NCBI RefSeq assembly: GCF_009937765.1
Contig: NZ_CP047089.1
Span: 1,858,272 to 1,922,271 of the forward strand
Origin: Bacillus pumilus
Lineage (GTDB): Bacteria > Bacillota > Bacilli > Bacillales > Bacillaceae
Direction of reading: 5' to 3'
Length of the DNA: 64,000 nucleotides
The position numbers and the translations under genes were made by a program. This document shows positions 36,508 to 47,866 of the stretch, in pieces (within the stretch, counting starts at the first letter, position 1; every line of letters begins with the position of its first letter). The notes under the pieces were generated by a model that did no database searches, was not told the DNA's origin, and saw nothing but the letters and a program-made list of their open reading frames with translations.

Positions 36508-36539
36508 AAAAAAGCTGCTCCTTTTGAGGAACAGCTTTT
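36508..36539 (-). terminator. Terminator of the polyol PTS operon
   Basis: The stem AAAAGCTGTTCCTC / GGAGCAGCTTTT (minus strand) has a 4-base loop and is followed by TTTTTT. It is directly after the IIA gene and insulates the PTS block from ylmA. Confidence 0.9.
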
Positions 36540-36547
36540 CTTTATCG

Positions 36548-36904
36548 TTACGAAATTTCAATTCGTACGCCTTCTTTTATATCAGGAAACGTGTGCGGAG
36601 ATGCAAAGACAGCTCCCGGTAATACATCATCAAACGGCTCTTGGAAGTAGATCGAAATATGGCCGAGTTCTTTAAAATTGTCATTTGCTTTATTGCCGAG
36701 AGCTGTAATCGTGTACGTTTGATCGCCCACTTGAATGGTACCGCCCAATTTCAACGGCTCTTCTTCTAAGTGTTCGAACTCGTGAATGACGGACATATCT
36801 CTTAATTCCTGCGGCGCTGCGGGTCCAAATAAAACAATCAGCTTATCTTCTTTAAATTGCGGGACTAATATCCCGATTTCTTTTACGACAGATTGTGTAA
36901 CCAT
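36548..36904 (-). CDS. srlB: PTS glucitol/sorbitol-type EIIA component
   Basis: IIA of the glucitol family accepts phosphate from HPr and passes it to the IIB domain. It has 118 residues and the family core of SrlB: SVIHEFEH then GDQTYTITALGNKANDNFKELGHISIYF (key GHISIYF). His41 in VIHEFEH aligns with the phosphorylated His of E. coli SrlB, with His45 as a second candidate. It is the last gene of the operon, after IIBC. The substrate need not be sorbitol. Confidence 0.9.
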   Translation of the reverse strand: MVTQSVVKEIGILVPQFKEDKLIVLFGPAAPQELRDMSVIHEFEHLEEEPLKLGGTIQVGDQTYTITALGNKANDNFKELGHISIYFQEPFDDVLPGAVFASPHTFPDIKEGVRIEIS

Positions 36905-36930
36905 GTATCTCGATTCCTCCTTTAATACGT

Positions 36931-37941
36931 TTAATACATACCGAAGCTGGCAGCGTATGCGATCACAACAGATAGAACCCCTGTAATGAGACGGCTATAC
37001 AAAACAGCTGGTACTCCATATTGTACCGTTTCCGGCTTCGCTTCACCAAGTGATAGCCCAACTGGAATGAAATCACACCCTACTTGACCGTTGATGGCAA
37101 ATAGTGCAGGAAGTGCAAATTGAGGCGGAATATTCCCTAGTGCAATTTGACTACCAATGAGAACACCGATGACTTGTGCAATGACTGCACCAGGTCCTAA
37201 GACAGGTGATAGGAATGGCAATGTACAGACCACAACGAGTAGTAAGAGTCCCCATATAGATCCTGCCAGTGGTGATAGAAAATGGGCAATCAAGTCACCA
37301 ATTTTTGTATAATTGATAATTCCAATTAACATACTGACAAATGCCATGAATGGAATAATGTTTTTCAAAAGCATATCAACGGAATCACGACCAGCCTGAT
37401 AGAACGTACCGGTAACTTTGCCAATTCCTCTTGAGAACCTCATCAAGAAATTCCCTTTTTCCTGACGCTCGAGATTTTCTTCTTTCAGTTTTGAATAGGT
37501 TTCTTTGAAATTCTCTTTGTCAATCGGCTCACTGTTATCCTGACCTTCTACTTTTGCCTCACCACTTGATGCATCCGCAAAGGAAATATCTTTTTCTGTG
37601 ACGCCTGATACGAAGATATCCTCTGTAATATGTTTTGCAAGCGGTCCAGAAGGAGAGGATGCCAAAACGTCTACAGTTGGAATGCGCTTCATTGGATACA
37701 GTCCGATTCGCGCAGTTCCTCCGCAGTCAATGACAACACACATCATTTCATCTTCTGGTATCGAGTTTTTAAAGCCATCACATGCTTCTGTCCCTGTCAT
37801 TTCTGCAATTTTACGTGCAACTGGGTGAATGCCTCCCCCTGTAATGGAAACAACCTTTCTTCTTTTACCGGTTGGTTCAAGCTCCAAGCCTTGGCCCCAT
37901 CCGCCAGCACCTTTTGCTACAAATACTTTGTGGTTTGTCAT
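36931..37941 (-). CDS. srlE: PTS glucitol/sorbitol-type EIIBC component
   Basis: This protein phosphorylates the sugar alcohol during uptake. It has 336 residues. The N-terminal IIB domain (1-125) begins with [12 protein letters not shown] and carries the phospho-acceptor Cys73 in [15 protein letters not shown] charged linker (about 125-165) follows. The C-terminal membrane part (IIC half) has about four helices with [35 protein letters not shown] and [16 protein letters not shown], all strongly conserved with E. coli SrlE. It is split from IIC2 (next gene upstream), as is usual for this PTS family. Confidence 0.92.
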
Positions 37942-37954
37942 GTCTAACCCTCCC

Positions 37955-38485
37955 CTATTGTGAATTCGCTTTCATTTTTCCTGCTAAGTACTTTGTAATC
38001 CATTCAGTAATAATACCGCGAAGTAAAATGACGACGATCCCGACTAAGAAGTACCGAACAGCAAGCTCTGACATTGAGTACCCTGCTTCTTTAATCCCGT
38101 TCGCAATCCCTAAGTAGACAAACAGTTCTCCTGCGTTGGCATATGGGAACAGTGATGTCACCGGATGAACAAATGAAACAGCTGAATCATAGAATGCTGG
38201 TTTTTGTTTTTCCGGTAAGAATCGGCCAAACGTATAAGCCATTGGGTTTGTCAAAATAAGTACGGATAAGATCGGCATTAACGTGTAGCGTAAAATGGTA
38301 TATTTCGCAGCAAACTGAATTGCTCTATTCACTCGCTCTTCTCCAATAAACTTCATGACAGCATAAGTGAAAGTAAGTAACACAACAAGCGTTGGAACGA
38401 TACCTGTAACAAGACCCATGAATTGCTTTCCGCCGGCTTCAAACATTCCGATAAAGTGCTCTCCAAACCATTGAATCCATTCCAT
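37955..38485 (-). CDS. srlA: PTS glucitol/sorbitol-type EIIC component
   Basis: This 176-residue membrane subunit forms part of the translocation channel with the IIBC protein. It shows [38 protein letters not shown] and [15 protein letters not shown], which match the SrlA/GutA family. Three to four hydrophobic helices are visible. The order srlA-srlE-srlB is the same as in the E. coli srl operon. It lies after gutM, in contrast to E. coli, where gutM follows the dehydrogenase. Confidence 0.92.
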
Positions 38486-38503
38486 GTTTCATCTCCCCTT
38501 TCT

Positions 38504-38935
38504 TTAGTTCACATTTGTTATATTTTTTTTCGAAATCGAGACAAGTGCCTGTTCAGCTGCCATGGAAAGTGCGTGCATGACAGCTGGCCCCTTTTTGCGT
38601 TTTTTCAACGTCTGCTTCATCATATGGTGCTCGTCTAACACAGCCCCTACATGCTTTCCTTCATATGAAGGGACTTCTTTAAACTTAGATAAGATCGACA
38701 CACCGCCAAGCACATGGCATTTTTGAATGATATACGATTCATCCACAATGATGAGCGCAATGGCACCAGGGCCAACTTTGCGCCGCTCCATTCCTGAAAA
38801 TAAGTGGTAACCTTGCTTCCCTCTGTAATCATCAATAAGTGAATCCATGCTCTTGCGGTAGTACTTGATTTGAATAAAAGATAACCCGTACTGCACAATG
38901 AGAATGATACAAAGTACGATCGCTAATTTTTCCAC
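38504..38935 (-). CDS. gutM: GutM family glucitol operon activator-like protein
   Basis: GutM activates the glucitol operon in E. coli, although the mechanism is not clear. The 143-residue protein has an N-terminal hydrophobic helix (about 5-22), then the GutM pattern YYRKSMDSLI, GRRKVGPGAIALIIVDE-like sequence, and QKCHVLGGVSILSKF. A basic patch TLKKRKKGPAV and a C-terminal tail make it longer than E. coli GutM (119 residues, from memory). It sits first among the PTS genes, after the oxidoreductase, and may be a membrane-tethered modulator. Confidence 0.82.
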   Translation of the reverse strand: MEKLAIVLCIILIVQYGLSFIQIKYYRKSMDSLIDDYRGKQGYHLFSGMERRKVGPGAIALIIVDESYIIQKCHVLGGVSILSKFKEVPSYEGKHVGAVLDEHHMMKQTLKKRKKGPAVMHALSMAAEQALVSISKKNITNVN

Positions 38936-38947
38936 AGCTTCACGCCC

Positions 38948-40192
38948 TTATGATTGAAATAAGTGATCTTGTAATGAACGCAGCTTCCAGACCGTTGTGT
39001 TTGAATCAAGCTCTACATCATCGTGAGTGAGGAATTGTCCTAATTTGATGTCTTTTTTCGCTACGACTTTTCCGCTAATTAAGCCAATTGGAATGTGGCC
39101 GTTCGTTTTCATGTCTTGATGTGTTTCAAGAACACCTCTTACGGAGTATCCGCCAATTCCGTCAAGTGATTCTCCAGCTTTGATATCTCTTTTCGCCACA
39201 GCGACTGTTTCTGATACTGGTACACCAATTGGGTGAATAGATGAATCATGTTGTAAGACCGCTTTTGCGATGGTAACAGGTGTTTCAAGACTCGCTAAGT
39301 GGAAAGGACGGTAAAGTGTGTAGTGTGGGCCTTTTCCAACTTTTAAGTAACGCAGCTCTTCATCTACTGGCTCAAGATCACTCTTCACGATGACAAATAC
39401 ACCTGGTGCAAGTCCATTGACATATTCAACGACTCCGAAGTTATCGAGCACGCCGCCTTGCTGTTTTTGATTCAATTTATCTGCAACATTTTCTAAATTC
39501 GCTTCGACTCCATGCATACCGACTTTATCTGGTAGAAGCCCTGTTGCGTTACTTAATAAGTTCATTTCCGCCATTGTTTTTGTTCCGTCTTGGAATGCAG
39601 CTAGCATATGTGCACTCATATGTTTACTATCTGCTTCTGCTTTACACGTATCTGGATTTGCTTCTGGGAAGAATGGGTTGTTCTTTCCTTTACCAGCAAC
39701 GAGTACCTCAAGCCCCATTGTTTTCGCAAATTCATATAATTCTAGTGTTGCTGCTGGTTCGTCTCCAGCTGATCCTGAGTAAACAAGTCCTGCATTTGTG
39801 AACAACTTATGCATAACCAAGCCGATGGTAATATCAACTTCTACATTTAAAAGAACGAGATGTTTTTTTGAATTAAGCGCTTCCAAAGAAATGTTTGCTC
39901 CGACCTCTGGGACACCTGTTGCGTCTACGACAACTTCCACGGAATCTGATTGAATCACTTCTCTGTAATCATTTGTGACAACCATTTGATGCGGTTTTGC
40001 ATGCTGCTTGTAAAAATTCGCTGCCTTCTCTGCTGCACTAAGGTGGATATCACAAACACCAGCAACAATCATGCCTGGAATTTTAGAAATTTGTGAAATG
40101 AGTCCAAAGCCCATTTGGCCTGCACCAATAATCCCTACTTTGATTGGATCTCCACTACGTTCTCGAGCTAACAATTGTTGATAGATTGACAT
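38948..40192 (-). CDS. SAF-domain NAD(P)-dependent oxidoreductase, DXR-like (DRL) / homoserine dehydrogenase-like
   Basis: A 414-residue oxidoreductase. The N-terminus has a Rossmann NAD(P)-binding motif VGIIGAGQMGFGL (about 19-31), then VVVDATGVPEVGA and VLLNVEVDITIG, as in homoserine dehydrogenase-like proteins. The centre has SAGDEPAATLELYEF and VAGKGKNNPFF; the C-terminal part (about 335-405) is a SAF domain, with VAVAKRDIKAGE and GKVVAKKDIKLGQ. This architecture matches the DXR-like (DRL) family of Brucella, which makes 2-C-methyl-D-erythritol 4-phosphate from DXP. It is first in the operon with a polyol PTS and no other enzyme, so it likely oxidises the imported phosphorylated polyol. 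The substrate is not determined by the sequence. Confidence 0.8.
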   Translation of the reverse strand: MSIYQQLLARERSGDPIKVGIIGAGQMGFGLISQISKIPGMIVAGVCDIHLSAAEKAANFYKQHAKPHQMVVTNDYREVIQSDSVEVVVDATGVPEVGANISLEALNSKKHLVLLNVEVDITIGLVMHKLFTNAGLVYSGSAGDEPAATLELYEFAKTMGLEVLVAGKGKNNPFFPEANPDTCKAEADSKHMSAHMLAAFQDGTKTMAEMNLLSNATGLLPDKVGMHGVEANLENVADKLNQKQQGGVLDNFGVVEYVNGLAPGVFVIVKSDLEPVDEELRYLKVGKGPHYTLYRPFHLASLETPVTIAKAVLQHDSSIHPIGVPVSETVAVAKRDIKAGESLDGIGGYSVRGVLETHQDMKTNGHIPIGLISGKVVAKKDIKLGQFLTHDDVELDSNTTVWKLRSLQDHLFQS

Positions 40193-40239
40193 CTAAATCA
40201 TCCTTTCAGGTTTTCTTGCTTCTCGGGTAGATTGCTAGA

Positions 40240-40327
40240 AATATAATCTGAAACTTTTAACAAATGTTATAAAAATTAACAAAAATCTGTTTCTTGTAAC
40301 ATTTGTTATTTTATTTATCATTTGTTA
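40240..40327 (-). promoter_or_regulatory. Promoter/operator region of the polyol PTS operon
   Basis: Three copies of a 12-bp palindrome occur: TAACAAATGTTA at 40258-40269, TAACATTTGTTA at 40297-40308, and TATCATTTGTTA at 40316-40327 (one mismatch). The two distal copies are 19 bases apart, centre to centre; the proximal one is 39 from the middle one. A possible -10 (TATATT on the minus strand, 40245-40240) has no convincing -35, which fits an activator-dependent promoter. The same palindromes recur upstream of the SorC-type regulator. Confidence 0.75.
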
Positions 40328-40390
40328 TGAACTTAGTTTATATGATGTGTCAACTTTGTGTCAAGCTAAAATCGATAAAATTTTCAATCT

Positions 40391-40438
40391 TTTTGAGTCT
40401 AAAGACTCAAAAAAACTACCTAATGATATTAGGTAGTT
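40391..40438 (-). terminator. Terminator of the SorC-type regulator gene with adjoining second hairpin
   Basis: The perfect 11-bp stem AACTACCTAAT / ATTAGGTAGTT (40438-40414) starts at the regulator stop codon and is followed on the minus strand by seven T. A second palindrome, TTTTGAGTC / GACTCAAAA (40391-40412), follows directly. The pair would stop regulator transcripts before the PTS promoter. Confidence 0.88.
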
Positions 40439-41375
40439 ACTTTAATAAGGCATCTCCAGTTCGTTCATCGGTAATTAATACATGAATTAATCCACCTGCT
40501 AATGCCGCCCGAATGGCTTCAATTTTCTCTTCACCACCTGCAACACCTATGACAAGCGGAATTTCTTTTAGCTTTTGCGGGCTTATGCCCATCACCCGGT
40601 CGTTCCATGGGTGGGGATATACTTCCCCTTGATGGTCAATAAAGTTATAGCAAATGTCACCTGCTACATCTTTCGCTTGAAGGATGTCTTCTTCGCCGCT
40701 TGTCATATAAGATTTCACCATCGTTGAATGCTGCGGGACACCACCAATTCCGACAACTGCGATATTTGATGATTCTCCTAGTTCAATGACTTTTTTGATC
40801 GACGGCTGCCGGATCAGGACATCTTTCGCTTCTTTCGTATCAAGCATGACGGGTACATGTAAAAATTCACATTTAGATTTGAGTGCCTCTGTGCATCTCG
40901 CAATAATATAGTTGGCGTGGATATCTACGTCTTCATTTCCCACACCTCCGACAAGCGGAACAAATGTCACGGATGGATAATGCTGAACAGACGTAAGCGC
41001 TTTCGCCATTTCATGCAGCGTGGTCCCTGAGGAAAACCCAATGACTTGTCCATCTTTCATCACTTTTAATAAAAAATTTGCCGCCGCGGCTCCGATTCGG
41101 CTTTTGGTTGTGTCTTTGCTGAGTGTTTCCACACAGACAACTTCTCTCAGTCCATATTTGCGTTCTATTTTTCTTTCTAACGACCCATACTGTTGGTTGA
41201 CTTCATCATGAATAATGATTTCCACGATTCCTGCTTCACGTGCTTTTGCCAAATATTTCGATATGAGCGAACGACTAACCCCAACCGCTTCTGCGATGTT
41301 AGATTGAGTGGCGCCTTCTTCATAATACATATGCGCAACCTTAATGAGCAGCCTTCTTTCATCATGGAATGTCAT
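40437..41375 (-). CDS. SorC/DeoR-type sugar-binding transcriptional regulator
   Basis: A 312-residue regulator of the SorC family. The N-terminal helix-turn-helix (about 18-45) is in EEGATQSNIAEAVGVSR and SLISKYLAKAREAG. The larger C-terminal sugar-phosphate-binding domain has VIGFSSGTTLHEMAKAL, TFVPLVGGVGN, NIAVVGIGGVPQHSTM and VAGGEEKIEAIRAALAGG, resembling the DeoR/CggR effector fold. It is a separate transcription unit upstream of the PTS operon, and 12-bp palindromes lie in both promoters, so it probably controls itself and the operon, with a phosphorylated polyol as effector. The family includes both activators and repressors. Confidence 0.9.
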   Translation of the reverse strand: MTFHDERRLLIKVAHMYYEEGATQSNIAEAVGVSRSLISKYLAKAREAGIVEIIIHDEVNQQYGSLERKIERKYGLREVVCVETLSKDTTKSRIGAAAANFLLKVMKDGQVIGFSSGTTLHEMAKALTSVQHYPSVTFVPLVGGVGNEDVDIHANYIIARCTEALKSKCEFLHVPVMLDTKEAKDVLIRQPSIKKVIELGESSNIAVVGIGGVPQHSTMVKSYMTSGEEDILQAKDVAGDICYNFIDHQGEVYPHPWNDRVMGISPQKLKEIPLVIGVAGGEEKIEAIRAALAGGLIHVLITDERTGDALLK

Positions 41376-41405
41376 AATAACCCTTCTTTCCGCTTAAGTG
41401 TTCCC

Positions 41406-41436
41406 TAACAAATGCTATCTAAAATAACATTTGTTA
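41406..41436 (-). promoter_or_regulatory. Paired operators upstream of the SorC-type regulator
   Basis: TAACATTTGTTA (41425-41436) and TAACAAATGCTA (41406-41417) are 19 bases apart, centre to centre, the same spacing as in the PTS promoter. They lie at and just downstream of the expected transcription start, a position suited to autorepression. Confidence 0.72.
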
Positions 41437-41441
41437 AAAAC

Positions 41442-41470
41442 AGATTAAATGAAAAAAATAACAGAGTCAA
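41442..41470 (-). promoter_or_regulatory. Putative sigma-A promoter of the SorC-type regulator
   Basis: TTGACT (41470-41465) and TAATCT (41447-41442) with a 17-base spacer. The -10 match is moderate. The start point would fall at the operator 41425-41436. Confidence 0.55.
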
Positions 41471-41499: not shown

Positions 41500-41530
41500 A
41501 AAAAAGCCGCACATGAAGCGGCGGCTTTAA
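41500..41530 (-). terminator. Terminator of sigG
   Basis: The stem AAAGCCGC / GCGGCTTT with a 10-base loop overlaps the sigG stop codon and is followed by TTTTTT on the minus strand. Confidence 0.88.
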
Positions 41531-44389: not shown

Positions 44390-47300
44390 TTACTTTTCAT
44401 TGATATTTAATGTGCCTGAAGCTTTTTGTCTTGTGACATTTCCATAATCATCTCGCACAATCACCTCAATGACCGCACTTTTTGCTTTAGCGGTAGAAGT
44501 AGCAGTCCAGTACCCTTCATACGTACCGCTCGATACTTCGCGAAGCGGCAGCTCTGTAGTATTTTGAAGCTTTGATCTCGCGTTTGTCAGCGGCATGTGA
44601 ATGACAAACGTTGCGTCTAGCTTTTCTCTGCTGTGGAATGAAATTTTAACAGACTCCCCTGATGCAAGATGGACATTCTCTGCTGGAGTCAGCTCAGAAA
44701 TCTCAGGTGCCTCATATTGGACATCGATATTGATTTTTTTAGTCGTTTTGTTTCCTGCTGCATCTTTCGCTATGACTTTGATCGTATTTTTCCCGTTCTC
44801 AAGTAGTATTCTTGCGGAATATGTCCCATCTTTTATGGTTGCCTTTTTTCCATTTACGGTGACTTGATCAAGATGATCGTCTGTGGCCTTTCCTTCTACA
44901 GTGAGCGATTCTTTATTTGTCTTTTCCCCTTTTTTCGGTGTATCGATGGTAAGCGCTGGAGCTGTTTGATCAATGATCACCTTTACTGGTGTTGATCGTT
45001 TTGTTGCGCCTTTATCCGTAACAGTTGCAGCCGTGAATACATGCTCTCCGCTTGAAACTGTGACCTTTTCTTTGAAAGCGCCTGACTGATCTGCTTTCAC
45101 TTTGGCAATCTCTTCATCGTTTTGATAGATCGCCACATCAAGCCCAGGAGAGGCTTTGCCTTCAATCTCCAGTTCACCTTTGTTCGTAATGATTCCTGCC
45201 TTTGGTGATGTAATCTCTGGCACATCTGCTTCATAGTCAACAAGCGCACGAATCATATAATTCCCCTCTTCTTTTGGAGAAGGAGAAAAAGCACCGCTTG
45301 TGAGCTGCCAGCTTCTTTCAGCATTTGGTCCATCCTCATCAGTTGCAAGGCCTGGAGATTCTGTATTCTTTTTCGTTTGAATATAGACAAGATAGAAATC
45401 TCCATCCACCGTAATGGCTTGGTCTTCTAAGTCTACTTTTGTCCATTCACCATTACGCAGTGCATTTGCTTTTAGAGGTCCTGCTATTTTCTCTCCTGGA
45501 GCTCCGTTCTTCCCAGAAGCGTCATACACTTCCACCGCAAATTCATTCCCTCCAGGAGCTGGCCACTCTGATGACCAGAATCGGAAAAGCCCTCCTGTGA
45601 GTTGCGCTTGTTTCTTCCCCTTTTCTAGTGAAAACTTCACAGCCCAGCCATTGCCTGGATCATAGAAGGCTCTCGCATTTTCAGCTGTACCGTCATCATA
45701 GCCAATCTCACCAGCAAATCCGATGAATGGCTCTAGCTGAATGGCTTTTTCCACCGGCTTTTCTGTCACATCTGCTGTAAAAGAATATCCTTTAAACCCT
45801 TTGGCAAATACTTTGACGGTATAGGCACCGCTCAATGCCTCTATAGAAAATTCGCCAGATTCATTTGTTTTCACCGGCTTAATTTTCGCATCCTCTACAA
45901 GATAAACCGTTGCATCCTTTATTTTTTCACCCGTTGTTTCGTTGGCAATTGTGCCAGATATCGTTCGTTTCTTTAGTGGCTGTAAGGCGAAATTCGCCTC
46001 AGCCGTTTCATTTGAAGAAATATGGACGGTTTGTGTGCGTGATTCAAATCCGTAAGCTTCCGCTTTCACTGTGAATTCTCCTGCACTATGAGGAAGCTGA
46101 TATCTCCCTGTCGCTTCATCTGTGTACGTTGACTTGCCGCTTTCAAGAACACTGATTTCCGCTTTCATAGGAAGAGCTTTGATGAACGGAGTAGTTAGAT
46201 TTTTTTCTTTTTTATGTGGATGTACAGCCTTATTTTTTTTAGGCATGGTTTGATCTGGAATTTTCATCTCATCTAAATGAACATCTTCGTTTGTCACCTG
46301 TCCTTCAACCATCCCAATTCCATCTGTTAATGCTGTAATTGCCTCTCTTGCATCAACTAAACCTGCCCCATAGCCATTGTTAGGTGATTCTGGGAATTGC
46401 TGATCAGTTAACGGCTTCGCAGTATCAATCAGTATTTGTTCAATCTGTTCAACTGAAAGATCTGACTGTGCTTGGCGAAGAAGAGCCACAACAGCTGACA
46501 CATGCGGGCCAGCCATCGACGTCCCGTTCCAGCCATCTTCATACCCTTTCCCAGGAATGGATGAACGAATGTTTACCCCTGGCGCCGCAATGTCTGGTTT
46601 CATGACGCCATATGGAGACGGACCTTGCAGTGAGAAAGACCCCAATTTATTATTTTGATCCGTAGCGCCCGTTGCAAAGGCCTCTTGATAGTTCGCAGGA
46701 TTCGCAATGGAGCCTTCACCACCAGGGTTGAATAAATCGGTATTGCCAGCTGAAAACTCTGGGAAGATGTCTGCGGCTCTCCAAGCATTGACGACATCCT
46801 TATACCAATCATCAAGACCAGGTCCACCGCCCCAAGAATTATTGACGACATCTGGTGCCTTTTCTGGATGTGGGTTTCCTGCGTCATCTTTTGGTGCTAA
46901 AATCCACTCACCTGCGTCAAGCAGATCAGCATCTGTACCACCATCTTCTGAGAAAGCTTTCACCGCGATCCATTTTGCCCCCGGTGCGACTCCGATTTGA
47001 TTCTTTCCATCTGGCTCAGAGCCAACCATCGTTCCCGTTACATGGGTACCATGCTCTAAATCATCATATGGTGCTTCAGATCCTGTCGTAGCATCGTACC
47101 AATTGAATTCATGCGTTGGTTCATTCGGATGTGCTGGATCAAACCCGCGGTATTTTTCCTTTAAAGCAGGATGATCCCATTCCACTCCTGTATCAATACT
47201 TGCCACAACTGTACCAGTACCGTCATAACCTAAAGCCCATGCGTCTGGAGCATGAATTTGAGAAATGTTCCACTCGACTCCATCTACTGCTTTCATTTGT

Positions 47301-47866
47301 TTTTTTTGCTTCGTCTTCAAATCAACGGGGCGGTGAATTTGACGAGTTTCATTTGGCAGCACTTGATCTACTTCCGGGAAGGCAGCCACCTTTTCCATGA
47401 CTTCTTTCGTTCCCGTCACCGCTAGACCATTCACAATATAGTACGAATGAATCTCCTTCACTTGCTTTTTCTTTTTCTCTTTTTGTAAATACGTAAGCAG
47501 CGCTTGCTGCGTCTCCTCAGATGTTGCTCTTAATTCGGATACGACAGCTGATCTTTTTGTGTATTGTGTTTTAGCCGCTGTTAATTTCTGTTTTTTGGCT
47601 TTGGACACCGCTTCCTTCGCCACTTTTTTCGTATTTGTTTGCTCTTTCATTTTGATTAAAAAAGTCACCTGATCATCCTGCTGAAACTGTTTCATTAATC
47701 TAGATGAGATCTTTGCTTTTGTTGTCTTAGAGGAGACAGCTTCCTCCTGATATGAGGTAGAAGTCGATTTTGCTTGAACCATCCCAAAGCTTGTCATCGT
47801 TAAAGTACCAATCACCAAAAGACTCATCAAACGATAGCCGGCGGTCTTGCGAAACTTCAATTTCAA
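44390..47866 (-). CDS. bpr: Bacillopeptidase F (secreted subtilisin-family serine protease)
   Basis: Bpr is a secreted S8 serine protease. A signal peptide of about 32 residues (MKLKFRKT, hydrophobic core, MVQA) and an I9-type propeptide (to about 195) precede the catalytic domain. The catalytic triad is Asp225 (ASIDTGVEWDH), His272 (EHGTHVTG) and Ser450 (NGTSMAGPH); the oxyanion Asn is in VNNSWGGG. C-terminal modules follow: carboxypeptidase-regulatory-like repeats (about 590-740), a beta region (about 745-890), and tandem Ig-like repeats (about 890-1060). Total 1158 residues, shorter than the B. subtilis protein (1433, from memory). The start is a TTG with AGGAGG 7 bases before it. The gene lies between ftsZ and spoIIGA; 47867-48117 holds no gene I can support. 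Confidence 0.93.
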   Translation of the reverse strand: MKLKFRKTAGYRLMSLLVIGTLTMTSFGMVQAKSTSTSYQEEAVSSKTTKAKISSRLMKQFQQDDQVTFLIKMKEQTNTKKVAKEAVSKAKKQKLTAAKTQYTKRSAVVSELRATSEETQQALLTYLQKEKKKKQVKEIHSYYIVNGLAVTGTKEVMEKVAAFPEVDQVLPNETRQIHRPVDLKTKQKKQMKAVDGVEWNISQIHAPDAWALGYDGTGTVVASIDTGVEWDHPALKEKYRGFDPAHPNEPTHEFNWYDATTGSEAPYDDLEHGTHVTGTMVGSEPDGKNQIGVAPGAKWIAVKAFSEDGGTDADLLDAGEWILAPKDDAGNPHPEKAPDVVNNSWGGGPGLDDWYKDVVNAWRAADIFPEFSAGNTDLFNPGGEGSIANPANYQEAFATGATDQNNKLGSFSLQGPSPYGVMKPDIAAPGVNIRSSIPGKGYEDGWNGTSMAGPHVSAVVALLRQAQSDLSVEQIEQILIDTAKPLTDQQFPESPNNGYGAGLVDAREAITALTDGIGMVEGQVTNEDVHLDEMKIPDQTMPKKNKAVHPHKKEKNLTTPFIKALPMKAEISVLESGKSTYTDEATGRYQLPHSAGEFTVKAEAYGFESRTQTVHISSNETAEANFALQPLKKRTISGTIANETTGEKIKDATVYLVEDAKIKPVKTNESGEFSIEALSGAYTVKVFAKGFKGYSFTADVTEKPVEKAIQLEPFIGFAGEIGYDDGTAENARAFYDPGNGWAVKFSLEKGKKQAQLTGGLFRFWSSEWPAPGGNEFAVEVYDASGKNGAPGEKIAGPLKANALRNGEWTKVDLEDQAITVDGDFYLVYIQTKKNTESPGLATDEDGPNAERSWQLTSGAFSPSPKEEGNYMIRALVDYEADVPEITSPKAGIITNKGELEIEGKASPGLDVAIYQNDEEIAKVKADQSGAFKEKVTVSSGEHVFTAATVTDKGATKRSTPVKVIIDQTAPALTIDTPKKGEKTNKESLTVEGKATDDHLDQVTVNGKKATIKDGTYSARILLENGKNTIKVIAKDAAGNKTTKKINIDVQYEAPEISELTPAENVHLASGESVKISFHSREKLDATFVIHMPLTNARSKLQNTTELPLREVSSGTYEGYWTATSTAKAKSAVIEVIVRDDYGNVTRQKASGTLNINEK

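Follow-up and report, generated by a model that had tools for sequence, protein, structure and literature searches.

We analysed a 64,000-nt stretch of the Bacillus pumilus genome (the window) and focused on an operon at 36508..41470 that encodes a glucitol-type phosphotransferase system (PTS) together with an oxidoreductase of the DXR-II/DRL family (type II 1-deoxy-D-xylulose 5-phosphate reductoisomerase and DXR-like proteins). The results suggest that this operon probably supplies the uptake and oxidation steps of a pathway that catabolises 2-C-methyl-D-erythritol (ME). Imported ME would become 2-C-methyl-D-erythritol 4-phosphate (MEP) via the PTS, DRL would oxidise MEP to 1-deoxy-D-xylulose 5-phosphate (DXP) with NAD(P), and a remote thiamine pyrophosphate (TPP)-dependent E1-E2-E3 complex would cleave DXP to acetyl-CoA, D-glyceraldehyde 3-phosphate and NADH, as acetoin dehydrogenase cleaves acetoin. 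The net route would run the first steps of the MEP pathway backwards for carbon. A phosphorylated polyol as the substrate is very likely, and the complex likely acts downstream of DRL; DXP is the probable intermediate, and ME is, somewhat less firmly, the probable imported compound.

Open reading frame (ORF) analysis and profile searches confirmed the gene content given in an earlier note on this DNA, with all genes on the minus strand and all Pfam matches above curated cut-offs:

36548..36904, minus strand, glucitol-type PTS IIA, 118 aa (PTSIIA_gutA, 1.9e-34)
36931..37941, minus strand, glucitol-type PTS IIB(C), 336 aa (EIIBC-GUT_N, 3e-71; EIIBC-GUT_C, 6.7e-47)
37955..38485, minus strand, glucitol-type PTS IIC, 176 aa (EII-GUT, 3e-78)
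38504..38935, minus strand, GutM-family protein, 143 aa (GutM PF06923, 7.5e-20)
38948..40192, minus strand, DXR-II/DRL-family NAD(P)-dependent oxidoreductase with SAF domain, 414 aa (DRL_cat, 2.8e-62; SAF, 8.7e-08)
40437..41375, minus strand, SorC/DeoR-type sugar-binding transcriptional regulator, 312 aa (Sugar-bind PF04198, 1.2e-67)

EII-GUT and DRL_cat each gave a single match in the whole genome, namely the operon IIC and the window DRL. No sorbitol-6-phosphate dehydrogenase was found between the operon ends, as the earlier note had said; the remainder of the genome was not searched for one. The statement that DRL is the only enzyme holds for the operon but probably not for the pathway, since a candidate partner complex is encoded elsewhere in the genome.

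DRL is a DXR-II family member that keeps the substrate-site residues

A PDB sequence search matched the window DRL to Brucella DXR-II (PDB 3upl and 3upy; E about 5e-96), and the protein has the DXR-II domain order of an N-terminal Rossmann domain, DRL_cat and a C-terminal SAF domain. B. pumilus SAFR-032 had already been placed in a DXR-II clade of 53 sequences, 11 of them experimentally verified (PMC3847144); the main text of that paper does not name the B. pumilus member as assayed and does not mention a PTS. We aligned the active site with that of Brucella DXR-II and tracked nine residues named in that main text. Eight were kept in the window DRL (G98, E151, F155, K168, K170, T206, H227 and R295, equal to Brucella G121, E174, F178, K191, K193, T229, H250 and R320, respectively), in agreement with the family membership proposed earlier, and Brucella Y322 was replaced by F297, a phenylalanine also present at this position in 9/58 E1-linked DRL relatives. 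K191, K193, T229 and R320 (Brucella numbering) were all found in the window DRL and in 58/58 E1-linked rows.

The eight rows that we labelled DLO-like retained K191 in seven cases, K193 in one, T229 in two and R320 in one, and mostly lacked H250 too. They stood apart from the window DRL, in two groups, in a 111-row DRL tree built without the second Listeria locus (L180) and without DRL matches aligned over <350 residues; the label was given by divergence, with published DLO sequences outside the tree. Both this tree and the E1-alpha tree described below were made by a quick method without bootstrap, and long branches were reported in them. The earlier note had named membership of another SAF oxidoreductase clade as a refutation, and this outcome did not occur; a DLO-type oxidoreductase found no support in tree placement or active-site residues.

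A canonical DXR-I is present in the window's genome, which makes a purely biosynthetic back-up DXR unlikely. Within the Bacillus-type DRL clade, the contig of a Bacillota metagenome-assembled genome carries a 54%-identical DRL directly before ispD and ispF (L056:4642-7103), and DXR-I was not found in that genome (1.3 Mb, possibly incomplete). This DRL looks like a biosynthetic DXR-II, and its context gives independent support that a relative of the window DRL works on MEP/DXP. The operon could on this basis serve ME salvage for isoprenoids, importing ME as MEP, an intermediate of the MEP pathway, while DRL balances the MEP and DXP pools and feeds or relieves the pathway. We regard such salvage as very unlikely, because MEP needs no DRL to enter the pathway, DXR-I is present, and the layout, in which a PTS operon has a sugar-binding regulator and is linked to a dehydrogenase complex, is that of a catabolic system. 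The earlier proposal that the operon feeds the MEP pathway was thus not borne out: the DRL genes go together with a TPP-dependent dehydrogenase complex, and this association favours a breakdown for carbon that ends in acetyl-CoA and triose phosphate.

DRL and a TPP-dependent dehydrogenase complex co-occur in Bacilli

In relatives, the DRL-PTS genes often run into or adjoin genes for a TPP-dependent dehydrogenase (E1-alpha, E1-beta, E2 and often E3). E1-alpha lay within the examined stretch at 22/52 named loci and 24/36 class loci, with some stretches ending at contig ends; the neighbourhood and tree sets were compiled without the short loci L059-L088 and without L001, L002, L125-L130 and L135-L167.

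Co-occurrence was assessed in 398 genomes of the class to which the window belongs (assumed to be Bacilli), with a cut-off for the cognate E1-alpha of E <= 1e-115 that was chosen after the data (cognate, 3e-175; acetoin type, 2.6e-104). DRL_cat was present in 39 genomes and the cognate E1-alpha in 37, with both in 34 (Fisher 2e-40 by genome and 6e-21 by genus, the genus-level count removing shared descent only in part). By hand count from the same tables, 22 genera had both, 4 DRL only, 1 E1-alpha only and 118 neither. DRL occurred without E1-alpha in G138, G180, G262, G285 and G346, and the proteins of G138, G262 and G346 were DLO-like in the tree. In the 34 genomes with both, the matches started within 10 kb of each other in 25, farther apart on one contig in 7 and on different contigs in 2. 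As a control for a general "polyol island", we considered the 55/398 genomes with a glucitol PTS: E1-alpha was found in 34/35 of those with DRL versus 0/20 of those without.

Transketolase was rejected as a general DRL partner, being near full-length in only 4 loci (L005, L041, L050 and L051) among 110 DRL matches; a partial transketolase was found at DRL locus L094. A small (about 110 aa) zinc-ribbon-like protein (cluster c11) is encoded beside the complex or DRL in 28/93 loci. A C. difficile plasmid (L202:8016-18966) encodes a SorC regulator, an E1-E2-E3 complex of the same type and a galactitol-type PTS, with no DRL in the examined stretch.

The complex of the window's genome is distinct from its acetoin-, branched-chain- and pyruvate dehydrogenase-type sets

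The E1-alpha/E1-beta/E2/E3 complex of the window's genome is encoded at G000:C1:2977616-2982349, about 1.08 Mb from the operon. Its E1-alpha, the best match in the genome (G000:C1:2981366-2982349), was 77% identical to the DRL-linked query and fell inside the DRL-linked Bacilli group of an E1-alpha tree built without matches under 200 residues. In this tree the branch joining the DRL-linked rows of both phyla, plus a C. difficile row, had a support of 83 (not starred). The genome also has acetoin-, branched-chain- and pyruvate dehydrogenase (PDH)-type sets, typed by similarity and gene context and distinct from the complex. Five acetoin-type E1-alphas formed a separate group (support 99), and the E1-alpha of the complex did not group with AcoA. 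Acetoin dehydrogenase itself was rejected as the DRL partner, given the separate Aco-type set in the genome and this tree separation.

Beside the complex genes are those of a galactitol-type PTS, a Zn-dehydrogenase, two short-chain dehydrogenases, a second SorC-type regulator and a zinc-ribbon-like protein (L131:2684-3013). This second polyol operon (L131:2684-14307; G000:C1:2974683-2986306) has perhaps 1-deoxyxylulose or a deoxypolyol as its substrate. In a same-genus genome (G327, L178) nothing but the regulator and the small protein accompanied the complex in the examined stretch, and three further same-genus genomes (G068, G162 and G238) had neither DRL nor E1-alpha.

We compared the lid loop of E1-alpha among 68 rows that came either from DRL-linked loci or from genomes carrying DRL (L169 left out). 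It carried Lys in 66/68 and Arg in 2/68, the lysine being residue 253 in the E1-alpha of the window's genome; the comparison proteins had Glu (5/5 acetoin-type references) or Met (the genome's PDH-type protein), and the lid loop of the complex differed from those of the genome's PDH-type, branched-chain (BKD)-type and AcoA-type proteins. The basic residue may hold the substrate phosphate.

The complex could instead be a PDH isozyme for polyol-derived pyruvate, in which case DRL would turn the phosphate of an ordinary linear polyol into that of a ketose by oxidation. PDH chains were its best PDB matches, and PDH E1-alpha "y" was its best NCBIfam model, at the cut-off; against the PDH E1-alpha model TIGR03182 (cut-off 393.85), L019 scored 397.7 and G000 393.6, one just above and one just below, a borderline match that we count among the points against DXP cleavage. 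However, sets of the PDH, branched-chain and acetoin types are present in the genome already, none of the 20 glucitol-PTS genomes without DRL carries the cognate E1-alpha, the lid loop is unlike those of the three other types, and DRL keeps the reductoisomerase substrate residues. The isozyme is accordingly an unlikely explanation, and cleavage of the DRL product remains our preferred role for the complex.

The DRL-E1-E2 core recurs on alphaproteobacterial plasmids

On alphaproteobacterial plasmids, a DRL about 40% identical to that of the window is followed directly by E1-alpha, E1-beta and E2. Thirty-three records had an E1-alpha homologue >=68% identical to the Agrobacterium protein, and DRL lay within 128 bp in 32 of them; for the remaining record (NZ_CP129381) no DRL was among the matches listed. 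The matches listed included a record of S. fredii NGR234, a strain named as DXR-II in PMC3847144, possibly on account of the same gene.

Two kinds of uptake module were seen among nine annotated E1-linked loci: GutM-IIC-IIB-IIA with PtsP in 4 (L182, L186, L204 and L205), and an ABC transporter with a sugar kinase in 3 (L181, L185 and L191; PfkB confirmed for L185). With either module, the substrate that reaches the DRL-E1-E2 core, itself unchanged, would be phosphorylated.

Five DLO-like plasmid loci had no E1-alpha match. In Deinococcus (L184:4304-9299) and Gemmobacter (L194:4528-8311), a DLO-like SAF oxidoreductase is encoded next to rfbF, a short-chain dehydrogenase/reductase gene and rfbC, and may have a role in nucleotide-sugar synthesis.

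Chemistry of the proposed cleavage and the apiitol alternative

Oxidation of MEP by a DXR-type enzyme yields DXP, in which a hydroxyl adjoins a methyl ketone; acetoin has the same acyloin motif. In acetoin dehydrogenase, TPP-bound E1 attacks the ketone and frees the aldehyde, and the acetyl group passes to lipoyl-E2. According to PMC3424233, E. coli with a mutant PDH E1 (aceE) contained about 20-fold more DXP, and purified PDH is cited as making 1-deoxyxylulose from pyruvate and glyceraldehyde; an E1 enzyme is thus able to form the very bond to be cut here. Plants contain ME and ME glucosides (PMC11192765). The earlier suggestion of a polyol converted to MEP by the PTS gives the best fit.

The imported compound could alternatively be apiitol or another branched pentitol, which the PTS would convert to 2-C-hydroxymethyl-erythritol 4-phosphate and DRL to D-xylulose 5-phosphate (CH2OH replacing the CH3 of DXP), for the pentose phosphate pathway. 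The DRLs of Ligilactobacillus (L005), Trichococcus (L050) and Halolactibacillus (L051) formed one group (support 91, not starred), and their loci (L005, 1512-9086; L050, 1972-11248; L051) have a glucitol PTS and transketolase instead of the E1 complex, with a fructose-6-phosphate-aldolase-type protein also encoded at L005. The L050 and L051 genomes lacked the E1 complex; the L005 genome was not searched. This group suggests that in some bacteria DRL handles a branched pentitol, for instance apiitol. The window DRL, however, was about 80% identical to many E1-linked DRLs versus 63% to the transketolase-linked ones, the window's genome has the E1 complex, and xylulose 5-phosphate needs no acyl-CoA-forming complex. 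The apiitol chemistry is our inference; no paper on bacterial apiitol catabolism was found in the open-access literature by titles and abstract starts. Apiitol, raised in the earlier note, therefore lives on mainly for the transketolase-linked clade and is improbable for the window, for which we retain ME.

PTS specificity and regulation of the operon

The IIB and IIC proteins pass the NCBIfam glucitol/sorbitol equivalogs NF049924 and NF049923, as would be expected if this were a conventional PTS operon for sorbitol or another hexitol with DRL in place of sorbitol-6-phosphate dehydrogenase. Yet IIB fell under the TIGR00825 cut-off (389.1 versus 458.7), and IIA (74.5 versus 189.55) and GutM (20 versus 148) were far under their equivalog cut-offs. 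The sorbitol-6-phosphate dehydrogenase of the srl sorbitol operon has no counterpart in the operon, DRL belongs to the DXR-II clade, and the 20 glucitol-PTS genomes without DRL have no complex. We consider a sorbitol operon highly improbable.

Terminator, promoter and genome pattern searches gave the following features around the operon:

41506..41522, minus strand, terminator-like hairpin of the upstream sigG, bounding the locus (terminator scan)
41425..41436, no strand, operator-like palindrome TAACATTTGTTA upstream of the regulator gene (genome pattern search)
40414..40438, minus strand, terminator-like hairpin and T-run between regulator and DRL (sequence reading and scan)
40335..40364, minus strand, possible sigma-A-type promoter of the DRL-PTS operon, TTGACA-18-TAAACT, weak (promoter scan)
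40297..40308, no strand, operator-like palindrome upstream of DRL (genome pattern search)
40258..40269, no strand, operator-like palindrome upstream of DRL (genome pattern search)
36511..36538, minus strand, the operon's own intrinsic terminator, with 12 pairs in its stem including one G-U (identified by eye, absent from the scan list)

The terminator scan found 10 terminator-like sites versus 5.5 expected, so that a single site is weak evidence, and the promoter scan found 12 sites versus 14.0 expected, no excess over chance. The earlier note had placed the operon between two terminators. The downstream one is the operon's own, but the upstream one belongs to sigG, and an additional hairpin separates the regulator from DRL; the regulator gene is probably its own transcription unit.

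The genome, a single contig of 3.77 Mb, has four copies of the pattern TAACAWWTGTTA, three of which lie inside the operon locus (one upstream of the regulator gene and two upstream of DRL), and the backwards-pattern control occurred at 2 places. The SorC-type regulator probably represses the operon via these predicted TAACAWWTGTTA operators until a phosphorylated intermediate builds up. One exact copy of TTACAWWTGTAA lies at 2982383, upstream of the E1-alpha of the complex; with <=1 mismatch, TTACAWWTGTAA gave 72 sites versus 78 for the control, which is no enrichment in the genome.

Observations that weigh against the proposed route

Several observations count against ME catabolism through the complex. 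In Bacilli, E1-alpha occurred without DRL in 3/37 genomes (G066, G073 and G160), and the complex was found without DRL beside galactitol-type PTS genes (L169 and L202) or elsewhere (L168 and L170). We searched ten genomes or records of DRL carriers, eight picked because no complex was adjacent and two with an adjacent one. Seven had no E1-alpha above 53% identity (Listeria, Trichococcus, Halolactibacillus, Terribacillus, Salinibacillus, Shouchella and Zophobihabitans), and only G406 among the eight had E1-alpha elsewhere; in these seven carriers DRL has another fate, or the complex is not needed. The lid-loop Lys/Arg marks the clade, not the DRL link, because it also occurs in L168, L170 and L202 without DRL nearby. 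The location of the window genome's complex beside a galactitol-type PTS and a Zn-dehydrogenase means that a different substrate may be its target, either in addition or in place of the proposed one. TAACAWWTGTTA was not found at the remote complex locus in the whole-genome pattern search, and an operator shared by operon and complex was rejected on this ground, which removes an argument for co-regulation.

Among 38 alphaproteobacterial records with a DRL of >=52% identity, 32 had E1-alpha and six did not (five Phyllobacterium and one Pararhizobium), and neither uptake module was found in the examined stretch of L183 and L187 (2/9 annotated E1-linked loci). The literature also has points against the route: DXP was not above background in wild-type E. 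coli aceE (PMC3424233), and DXR-II is described as biosynthetic (PMC3847144).

We put forward a broader picture tentatively. DXR-II might be mostly catabolic across its family, and bacteria of at least two phyla might live on plant ME by reversing the first two steps of the MEP pathway via a dedicated DXP-cleaving "DXP dehydrogenase", a new activity of the E1-E2-E3 superfamily. Lineages without DXR-I would have recruited DXR-II for isoprenoids, and the galactitol-type PTS that some loci have beside the complex would bring 1-deoxyxylulose or a deoxypolyol into it.

Genomic surroundings of the operon

The operon sits between genes that we take to be sigG (upstream) and a ylmA-type ABC ATPase gene. 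The same position between a sigma-factor pair and an ABC ATPase gene was found in 8/10 B. pumilus-group relatives (L007-L013 and L037); in the two remaining ones, L014 ends before the regulator and the ATPase ORF of L015 was not called. The window DRL was 100% identical to that of B. safensis FO-36b (B. pumilus group). A subtilisin-type peptidase ORF at 44390-47866 of the window has 1158 aa compared with 1438-1441 aa in seven relatives, and is possibly a shorter allele.

Comparison with known systems

The window DRL shares domain order, clade and phosphate/substrate-site residues with the Brucella DXR-II/DRL family. The family is described as biosynthetic (DXP to MEP), whereas the window DRL stands in a PTS operon of a genome with DXR-I and with a cognate complex elsewhere, suggesting the reverse direction. 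The protein families and the assignment of the B. pumilus DRL to DXR-II were known already (main text of PMC3847144); what is added here is a proposed catabolic context for DXR-II, together with the prediction of a new activity among E1-E2-E3 complexes. In the open-access literature, with most subscription-journal papers and preprints outside the scope, we found no description of a DRL-PTS-E1 cluster, of ME catabolism or of a link to acetoin dehydrogenase. Gene dosage and fosmidomycin tolerance have been offered as possible reasons why DXR-II evolved beside DXR-I (main text of PMC3847144), and a catabolic role would directly answer why DXR-I strains carry DXR-II. If true, the route would be a new way of degrading ME, a plant product, and a new reaction for the 2-oxo-acid/acetoin dehydrogenase superfamily, and the annotation "DXR-II" need not mean isoprenoid synthesis.

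A glucitol-type PTS operon of Listeria (L003) has the same order of regulator, DRL, GutM, IIC, IIB and IIA. It is annotated as a sorbitol PTS and probably corresponds to lmo0542-0544 of PMC10580955 (matched by annotation alone), where the passage on these genes names no substrate; the Listeria record searched (W01) has no cognate E1-alpha.

The acetoin dehydrogenase AcoABCL has the same subunit set as the DRL-linked complex. Its TPP-dependent E1 splits an acyloin into acetyl-CoA and an aldehyde. The lid loop reads Phe-Glu-Gly in acetoin-type E1-alphas versus Ser-Lys/Arg-Ser in the DRL-linked rows, and the DRL-linked complex, unlike the acetoin dehydrogenase complex, is linked to DRL and PTS genes. 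With the E. coli srl operon, the window operon has the IIA, IIB, IIC and GutM families in common; the srl operon includes SrlD, whereas the window operon has DRL instead, together with a SorC-type regulator.

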